This document shows, one piece after another, positions 62,311 through 64,000 of a stretch of DNA of 64,000 nucleotides. The DNA comes from Phycisphaeraceae bacterium (lineage in GTDB: Bacteria; Planctomycetota; Phycisphaerae; Phycisphaerales; UBA1924). The DNA lies in assembly GCA_019636675.1 (NCBI GenBank), contig JAHBXC010000002.1, positions 682,001-746,000 of the forward strand, given 5' to 3'. The notes beneath the pieces were generated by a model, which was given only the letters and a program-made list of their open reading frames with translations, was not told the origin of the DNA and did no database searches. The translations under genes were made by a program, and so were the position numbers. Positions within the stretch are counted from its first letter, which is position 1. Each line of letters starts with the position of its first letter.

Positions 62311-64000
62311 ATGTCCTACACCGTCCTCGCGAGGCGATACCGCAGCCGGTCGTTCGACGAGCTCGTCGGGCAGGACGCCGTCGCGCGCACGCTCGCCAAC
62401 GCCATCGAGCGGGGGCGCGTCGGGCACGCCTACCTGTTCTGCGGCACGCGCGGGGTTGGGAAGACCTCGCTGGCGCGCATCTTCGCCAAAGCCCTCAACG
62501 CTCCCGATGACAAGCCCAAGGATGTCGCCGAGGCGATCATGCAGGGGCGCGACACCGATGTGATCGAGATCGACGCGGCGTCGAACCGCGGCGTCGACGA
62601 GGCGCGCGAGCTCATCGCGAACTCGGTCTATCGCCCGATGCGGGGCCGGTACAAGATCTACATCATCGACGAGGTTCACATGCTCACGAGGGAGGCGTTC
62701 AACGCCCTCCTCAAGACCATGGAAGAGCCGCCCGAGCACGTGAAGTTCATCCTGTGCACCACCGAGGCGCACAAGGTGCCCCCGACGATCCAGAGCCGCT
62801 GCCAGCGGTTCGACTTCAAGAACATCGACTCGCGCCGGATCGGCGAGCACCTGCGCAGCGTGCTGAAGCAGGAGAAGGTCGAGGCCGAGCCCTCGGTCGT
62901 CGCGCAGGTGGCGCGTCTCGCGAACGGCTCGATGCGCGACTCGCTGACGCTGATGGACCGTCTCCTCGCGACGGGCGAGAAGAAGCTGACCTCGGCGCTG
63001 CTGCACGACATCCTGGGTTTGCCGCAGGGCGACCTGATCGACGCGCTGCTCGGCGCGTGCGCCGAGGGGTCGCTCAAGGGCGCGCTGGAATCGGGCGATG
63101 CGCTGCTCCAGAGCGGGGTGACCATCGACCAGGCGCTCGAGTCGATCGTCTCGCGGCTGCGCGACGTGCTGATCATCGCCGCGTGCGGGCACGACAGCGA
63201 GATCGCCGAACTCGAGGGCGAGGACCGCGAGCGGGCGGCGGCGCTGGCCGACCGTCTCGACGACGCGGGGATCGTGCACATGATCGCGCTGTGTGAGAAC
63301 GCGGCCAGGTCGGCCCGCTCGAGCAGCACGCCGCGCGCGCTCTTCGACGCCGTCGTGGCGCGCATGGCGATGACCGAGCGCATCGCCGACGCGGCGGCGC
63401 TGGCTCGCTCGGGCGCTGCGTCCGGGCCCCCGGCCTCGGGCGGTCGCGCGCTGGCCGGCGCGTCGTCGGAGCCGCCAAAAAAAGCAGGAGCGCCGGCCGG
63501 CGGTGAACCCGCCCGGTCGGCGCGACCCGAGCCGACCGCCGACGCGAGAGGCGACGCGGCGCGCCCGGCCATCCCCTGCGCCGCAACTGGCGACCTATGG
63601 GCGTCGATGCGCGAGCAGGCCCCGCCCGGGGTTCGGTCCGTGCTGCGCCCGCTGACGCTGGCCGCGCAGACCCGCGATTCGATCACGCTGCGTGCTGGAG
63701 ACGAGTACACGCTCAAGTTCGCGCAGAGCCGGCTGGACGCGATCCGCCAGTTCGCGTCTGAGCTGGCGGGGCGCCCGATCGGCGTGACGCTGGTCGGCGC
63801 GGCTCCGGCGAGGCGTGAAGAGGAACCGGGGGCAACGGGGGCATCGGGGGCTCCGGGGGCGCCGGGGGGGTCGGGTGCGAGGCCGCGGCCGGCGCAGTCC
63901 GGGCTGACGGTCGCCGAGCGTGAGGCGATGGAGCACCCGCTGGTGCGCACGGCGATCGATCTTTTCGGCGCGCGCCTGGTTCGGGTCGAGACCGACAGCG
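62311..64000 (+). CDS. dnaX: DNA polymerase III gamma/tau subunit DnaX (partial at window end)
   Basis: The clamp-loader ATPase. FDELVGQDAVARTL opens the domain, Walker A is GTRGVGKTS (residues 45-53), IDAASNRGVDEARELI and YKIYIIDEVHMLTREAFNAL (Walker B), KTMEEPPEHVKFILCTTEA and SRCQRFDFKNID (sensor/Arg finger) follow. The Cys4 zinc module normally found after Walker A is replaced by ALNAPDDKPKDVAEA. Codons 390-391 are AAA AAA in a slippery run; a -1 shift predicts gamma of 398 residues. The zero-frame tau continues with a C-terminal MEHPLVRTAIDLFGARLV to the window edge, where the gene is cut. Confidence 0.95.
   Translation, partial: MSYTVLARRYRSRSFDELVGQDAVARTLANAIERGRVGHAYLFCGTRGVGKTSLARIFAKALNAPDDKPKDVAEAIMQGRDTDVIEIDAASNRGVDEARELIANSVYRPMRGRYKIYIIDEVHMLTREAFNALLKTMEEPPEHVKFILCTTEAHKVPPTIQSRCQRFDFKNIDSRRIGEHLRSVLKQEKVEAEPSVVAQVARLANGSMRDSLTLMDRLLATGEKKLTSALLHDILGLPQGDLIDALLGACAEGSLKGALESGDALLQSGVTIDQALESIVSRLRDVLIIAACGHDSEIAELEGEDRERAAALADRLDDAGIVHMIALCENAARSARSSSTPRALFDAVVARMAMTERIADAAALARSGAASGPPASGGRALAGASSEPPKKAGAPAGGEPARSARPEPTADARGDAARPAIPCAATGDLWASMREQAPPGVRSVLRPLTLAAQTRDSITLRAGDEYTLKFAQSRLDAIRQFASELAGRPIGVTLVGAAPARREEEPGATGASGAPGAPGGSGARPRPAQSGLTVAEREAMEHPLVRTAIDLFGARLVRVETDS
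63477..63522 (+). promoter_or_regulatory. Programmed -1 frameshift signal in dnaX
   Basis: A7 at 63477-63483 (zero frame P, AAA, AAA, GCA), a seven-base spacer GCAGGAG, then a 10-bp stem (63491-63500 with 63513-63522, one G-U pair, 12-base loop). In the -1 frame seven codons follow to TGA at 63504-63506. GGAG at 63468-63471 lies five bases upstream of the run and may act as an internal Shine-Dalgarno stimulator. Confidence 0.8.

Follow-up and report, generated by a model that had tools for sequence, protein, structure and literature searches.

Does the dnaX gene at the end of a 64,000-nt stretch of DNA from a Phycisphaeraceae bacterium carry a -1 programmed frameshift site, does slippage there take place on the ribosome or during transcription, and which of the two products, gamma or tau, depends on it? 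The stretch (hereafter the window: GCA_019636675.1, contig JAHBXC010000002.1, positions 682,001-746,000 of the forward strand; Phycisphaerales, UBA1924) had been the subject of a sequence-only reading, which proposed a -1 frameshift giving a 398-residue gamma next to full-length tau. The proposal is supported by the anatomy of the site, by comparison with Escherichia coli K-12 and, above all, by relatives. These add what that reading did not contain, namely that the usual polarity in the window's own family is the reverse, with gamma in the zero frame.

The gene and its cassette

The gene lies on the forward strand, as do all features below, and occupies positions 62311-64000, its zero-frame product (tau, 578 aa as predicted) ending at a stop 47 nt past the end of the window. 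It is identified as the gamma/tau gene by NCBIfam TIGR02397 (dnaX_nterm, 387.6 bits, cut-off 250), and Pfam PF12169 (domain III) covers residues 229-362. A separate observation concerns the segment at 62491-62570 and its counterparts in relatives: the four-cysteine zinc module is missing from the DnaX of the order, with zero or one cysteine in 157 of 157 rows (regular-expression matches only, 32 order rows being unmatched), while the same segment has four cysteines in E. coli and four or five in 23 of the 26 outgroup rows that matched.

At the slip site the zero frame reads CCG CCA AAA AAA GCA GGA. The slippery heptamer thus occupies 63477-63483 and is divided by the frame as A AAA AAA, as the sequence-only reading had it. 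Its measures of the downstream structure needed correction: the spacer, taken from the fold of the site, has 6 nt (63484-63489) and not seven, and the predicted stimulatory hairpin (63490-63523) folds with 14 bp, one bulge and a 5-nt loop, in place of the 10 bp proposed. In the -1 frame, seven gamma-specific codons (63483-63503; AGC AGG AGC GCC GGC CGG CGG, or S R S A G R R) lead to the stop TGA at 63504-63506, within the hairpin loop; both this stop, seven codons on, and the predicted gamma of 391 + 7 = 398 aa can be read directly. The tau-specific C-terminal part continues in the zero frame from 63484 to 64000 and beyond the window. After the run, the -1 frame is thus closed at 7 codons, while the +1 frame is open for 56 and the zero frame for 187. 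A GGAG that may act as an internal Shine-Dalgarno (SD) stimulator is present just upstream (63468-63471), as had been noted, but it ends 5 nt before the run, which is unusually close; both E. coli and the relatives described below have a longer distance here.

The run of seven A (A7) is the sole A or T run of at least seven in the 64 kb (GC 69%), in agreement with the rarity claimed for it. Only 3 lysine codons out of 17 in the dnaX stretch are AAA, two of these three being the slip codons, and from 40 of 530 codon positions the -1 frame reaches a stop within 8 codons. The minimum free energy (MFE) of the fold at the site (-32.6 kcal/mol, z -2.0 over 57 nt; the hairpin on its own has z -3.7) is the lowest among 27 offsets, but the stem alone is weak evidence, since the stretch is GC-rich and the offset at -90 folds nearly as well (-31.7). 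A chance run was rejected as an explanation, given that there is one such run only in 64 kb and that the same site occurs in relatives. The cassette is genuine, and the original observation is confirmed.

Split and continuous genes among the relatives

The comparison covered 191 dnaX loci from the window's family (f1) and order. The figures for f1 refer to 110 of its 163 genomes; fragmentary f1 matches (G008, G016, G054, G076, G092, G113, G174 and the second of G031) were left out, and 15 places of f2 and 2 of f6 were not taken in. A gene was called continuous where the zero frame stays open for at least 300 nt after domain III, and split where a stop follows within 150 nt; L076 and L193, with no stop before the end of the locus, were set aside. 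Among the 189 loci classified, 133 are split and 56 continuous, distributed by family (split/continuous) as 101/8 in f1, 10/18 in f2, 0/1 in f3, 1/5 in f4, 2/6 in f5 and 19/18 in f6.

The sequence-only reading had named the lack of the A run in relatives as a finding that would count against it. What was found is that 133 of 133 split loci have an X XXY YYZ heptamer ahead of their zero-frame stop, in phase and with AAA as its A-site codon. An in-phase heptamer with the same A-site codon also occurs in 54 of 56 continuous loci, close to where domain III ends. A usable slip site is missing from two of the 56, L189 and L190 (which has GGGAAAG only, and its -1 stop is not near). These two have lost the run and keep a continuous tau, so that gamma is apparently dispensable; together with the off spacing of GGAG, they are what can be said for the window's run and stem being a non-functional remnant, kept by descent in a gene that makes tau only. 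We regard this as very unlikely in view of the lone A7 in 64 kb at 69% GC, the double use of a rare lysine codon, and the strong hairpin at the family's commonest distance.

In the split loci, the tau part follows in the -1 frame in 127 of 133 (open for at least 50 codons) and in the +1 frame in two (L117, with A12, and L165, with A9), and it is cut off in the other four. Codon-position GC favours the -1 frame in 118 of the 127, and the zero frame in 52 of 55 continuous loci. A tblastn search of the 191 loci with the window's tau part placed it in the -1 frame in 73, the zero frame in 29 and the +1 frame in 2, with no match in 87; this search is weak here (an Ala/Pro-rich tail, filters off, and some matches that start upstream of the site or far away, as in L020, L058 and L113), and for L110 the match in +1 is at base 155. 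Because of this tail composition and these stray positions, open frames and codon-position GC were given more weight. With the tau part in another frame in the split loci, most members of f1 would make gamma by ordinary reading and tau by a frameshift, and the window is the exception.

In the f1 split loci (n = 101) the zero-frame stop lies 3 nt past the site in 87, 0 nt in 10, 18 nt in 3 and 21 nt in 1. Their heptamers are A7 (84), A8 (1), GGGAAAA (15) and CCCAAAA (1), whereas f6 loci have mostly A10. Runs of A7-A8 with tau in the zero frame are also known from f2 (L167, L171, L180, L181, L183 and L187).

One f1 locus called continuous, L064 (G106), has A6 where two loci of the same genus have A7, and both its tau match and its codon-position GC point to the +1 frame. 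Probably this gene is split as well and lacks one base through an assembly indel, in a single-contig genome of 86% completeness; if so, 7 continuous loci remain in f1. Might the zero-frame tau of the window be such an artefact as well, the true gene being split like most of f1? Apart from L064, the proportion of split loci (101 of 109 in f1) would invite the suspicion. It is scarcely credible for the window, in which codon-position GC puts tau in frame with the N-terminal part and the -1 frame is shut at 7 codons, and whose nearest relative (G069, 69% identical, with A8 and a fold less clean than the window's) is continuous too.

Slippage on the ribosome or in transcription

Signals of the ribosomal type are concentrated in the split loci of f1. 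An SD core 3-17 nt upstream is present in 69 of 101 (12.8 expected), with a peak spacing of 7-10 nt; the window's spacing of 5 nt occurs in 0 of 101. No such enrichment is seen in the continuous loci of f1 (1 of 8, the window itself, 0.8 expected) or in the A10-rich f6 (3 of 37, 2.8 expected). Similarly, a stem of at least 8 bp starting at +5 to +9 is found in 77 of 100 f1 split loci against 41% at control offsets, the commonest start being +6 (45 loci), which is also that of the window, and the mean MFE of these loci falls from about -17 upstream to -24.9 kcal/mol at +6. Stems show little enrichment in the continuous loci of f1 (4 of 8, against 38%) and none in f6 (11 of 37, against 36%).

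The long runs behave differently. Continuous loci with A9-A10 soon run into stops in both other frames, the medians in f6 being 3 codons in the -1 frame and 0 in the +1 frame. The argument from the +1 stop is clear both for these loci and for the window; it is mixed for the other continuous loci with A7-A8, in which that stop lies 182, 16, 133, 5, 20, 11 and 2 codons away. Outside the order, 20 loci of the class were picked by open-frame length (10 short and 10 long, not at random), and all 20 have A9 or A10 at the site. One match list of the analysis comprised the best 80 entries of a capped list. Among the 10 short class loci, a long frame follows in -1 in six and in +1 in one, with neither in two and one cut off. 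L195 (split, A10) has its long open frame after the stop in +1, as do L117 and L165, and this frame at the three loci is what transcriptional slippage would allow. In two other loci of the class with A10, L196 and L201, each of the three frames meets a stop no more than 24 codons from domain III, and these genes possibly encode a gamma-only DnaX.

Taken together, the 16 of 101 loci with GGGAAAA or CCCAAAA and the enrichment of SD cores and stems in the f1 split loci, unlike f6, favour ribosomal slippage. Our reading is that two mechanisms would be at work, ribosomal at the A7 and GGGAAAA loci and transcriptional at the A9-A10 loci. For the window itself the ribosomal reading is less firm than for its split relatives, owing to its odd SD distance and to the lack of SD enrichment in the continuous loci of f1.

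The competing explanation for the window is transcriptional slippage of the Thermus kind, in which RNA polymerase would add an A to the run and thus bring about -1 reading and gamma. In its favour are the 20 chosen class loci with A9 or A10, the f6 loci and continuous A9-A10 loci with close stops in both other frames (the Thermus layout) and the two long-run split loci with tau in +1; the window, moreover, groups with an A8 and an A9 locus (SH-aLRT 88). Transcriptional slippage can also be stimulated by stem-loops. Antonov et al. (PMC3711429) argue for it at shorter runs too, in their 17 inverted dnaX genes, and allow two joined short homopolymers as slip sites, so that the heptamers other than A7 are not decisive by themselves. 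Still, seven A make a short run, in the window +1 is open for 56 codons where -1 stops after 7, and relatives have GGGAAAA or CCCAAAA in place of A7 together with SD sites that act on the ribosome. For the window we therefore judge transcriptional slippage unlikely.

In our judgement the likely explanation is that dnaX contains a site for -1 programmed ribosomal frameshifting. The anatomy, the phase, the rarity of the run and the site in relatives are observed; slipping, its efficiency and both products are inferred from them. Lys-tRNA(UUU) would occupy the two AAA codons of the heptamer, while the ribosome would be slowed by the 14-bp hairpin and, perhaps, by base pairing between GGAG and 16S rRNA. 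A share of ribosomes would then move back one base and end 7 codons on, releasing a gamma of 398 aa with the ATPase part and domain III, and the remaining ribosomes would keep the frame and make tau.

The A-site codon offers a further detail. All 101 split loci of f1 have A as its third base. In E. coli, with its one tRNA-Lys, A AAA AAG is shiftier than A AAA AAA (PMC5009743), a point against frameshifting at the window's site. Both tRNA-Lys(UUU) and tRNA-Lys(CUU) were found in the window's genome (the tRNA reading covered 40 of 45 matches), and the core pattern of the latter is found in 117 of 163 f1 genomes, against 0 for a reversed-pattern control. With the CUU tRNA present, AAG would be read by a tRNA that re-pairs poorly with AAA; an A site restricted to AAA fits a separate tRNA-Lys(CUU) for AAG, the poor re-pairing being the step that we infer.

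Comparison with known systems

Run through the same script, dnaX of E. coli K-12 MG1655 resembles the window in polarity, heptamer phase, 6-nt spacer, hairpin and near -1 stop, and the window has several features of that type: a heptamer after domain III, a near -1 stop while the zero frame runs on into tau, and a hairpin 5-9 nt downstream. The two also differ: the E. coli hairpin has -19.7 kcal/mol against -32.6; its AGGGAG ends 10 nt before the run, the window's GGAG 5 nt; its slip site is A AAA AAG, that of the window A AAA AAA in a genome with two tRNA-Lys; and its -1 stop comes after one codon (PMC5009743), not seven. Thermus thermophilus dnaX has an A-run at the same position in the gene and makes its short product by leaving the frame, as the window would. 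However, it has A9 and near stops in both frames, whereas the window has A7, a hairpin and a near stop in -1 only; the window thus lacks both marks of the Thermus type, a run of about nine or more and near stops in both other frames.

The reverse arrangement is known as inverted dnaX. Antonov et al. 2013 (PMC3711429) report 17 such genes from 12 genera, 12 with A-runs (nine of them A10) and five without, and argue for transcriptional slippage; heptamers other than A-runs may be among these five. A review (PMC5009743) notes the arrangement, with Chlorobium phaeobacteroides as a candidate, and PMC4066793 repeats the point. The split relatives share with these genes a zero-frame gamma, tau by -1 frameshifting and a stop right after the site, but have mostly A7, some GGGAAAA, and SD and stem signals. 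The window does not have this layout, which is found in 101 of 109 f1 loci apart from the cut-off ones. The window's dnaX would be a new member of the E. coli type of frameshift and no new kind of system, while the reverse arrangement is the rule in its family. In the open-access literature we found nothing on dnaX frameshifting in planctomycetes nor, judging by passages, on family-wide dominance of inverted dnaX or its repeated swapping.

Changes of role and their meaning

In a tree of DnaX N-terminal parts (220 rows) the window falls together with two other continuous loci, G069 (A8) and L027 (A9), near the beginning of f1 (SH-aLRT 88, with an open fork). Its lineage may either have kept the zero-frame tau of an ancestor with A9-A10 while the run shortened, or have swapped back. 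Parsimony gives at least 28 changes between split and continuous, including 4 inside f1, 8 inside f6 and 6 inside f2 (for which shuffles came down to 5), counts that are rough and lean upwards, as they come from a single-protein tree with 62 of 216 branches under 80; the type of heptamer changes 9 times. The slip site is kept across the order while the frame of tau differs, and the window would be a member with the polarity of E. coli in a family that is mostly inverted.

We lean towards the view that, in f1, a move from transcriptional slippage (at A9-A10 runs like those elsewhere in the class) to ribosomal slippage (A7, GGGAAAA and CCCAAAA with SD and stem) accompanied a reversal of roles, tau being reached only via -1 frameshifting. 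The frame of tau would have changed often in the order at a constant site, as if the ratio of products were selected and not which of them is frameshifted, and the window's lineage would be a natural case of such a swap.

In practical terms, annotation pipelines may give a truncated DnaX in the split genomes. For the biology of the family, the clade offers related genes that seemingly reach the same two products via transcription in some and via the ribosome in others. Whether bacteria need gamma beside tau is a matter of long-standing argument, and a clade with a fixed slip site and swapped products makes the question testable: split genes would need the shift for tau, continuous ones only for gamma.
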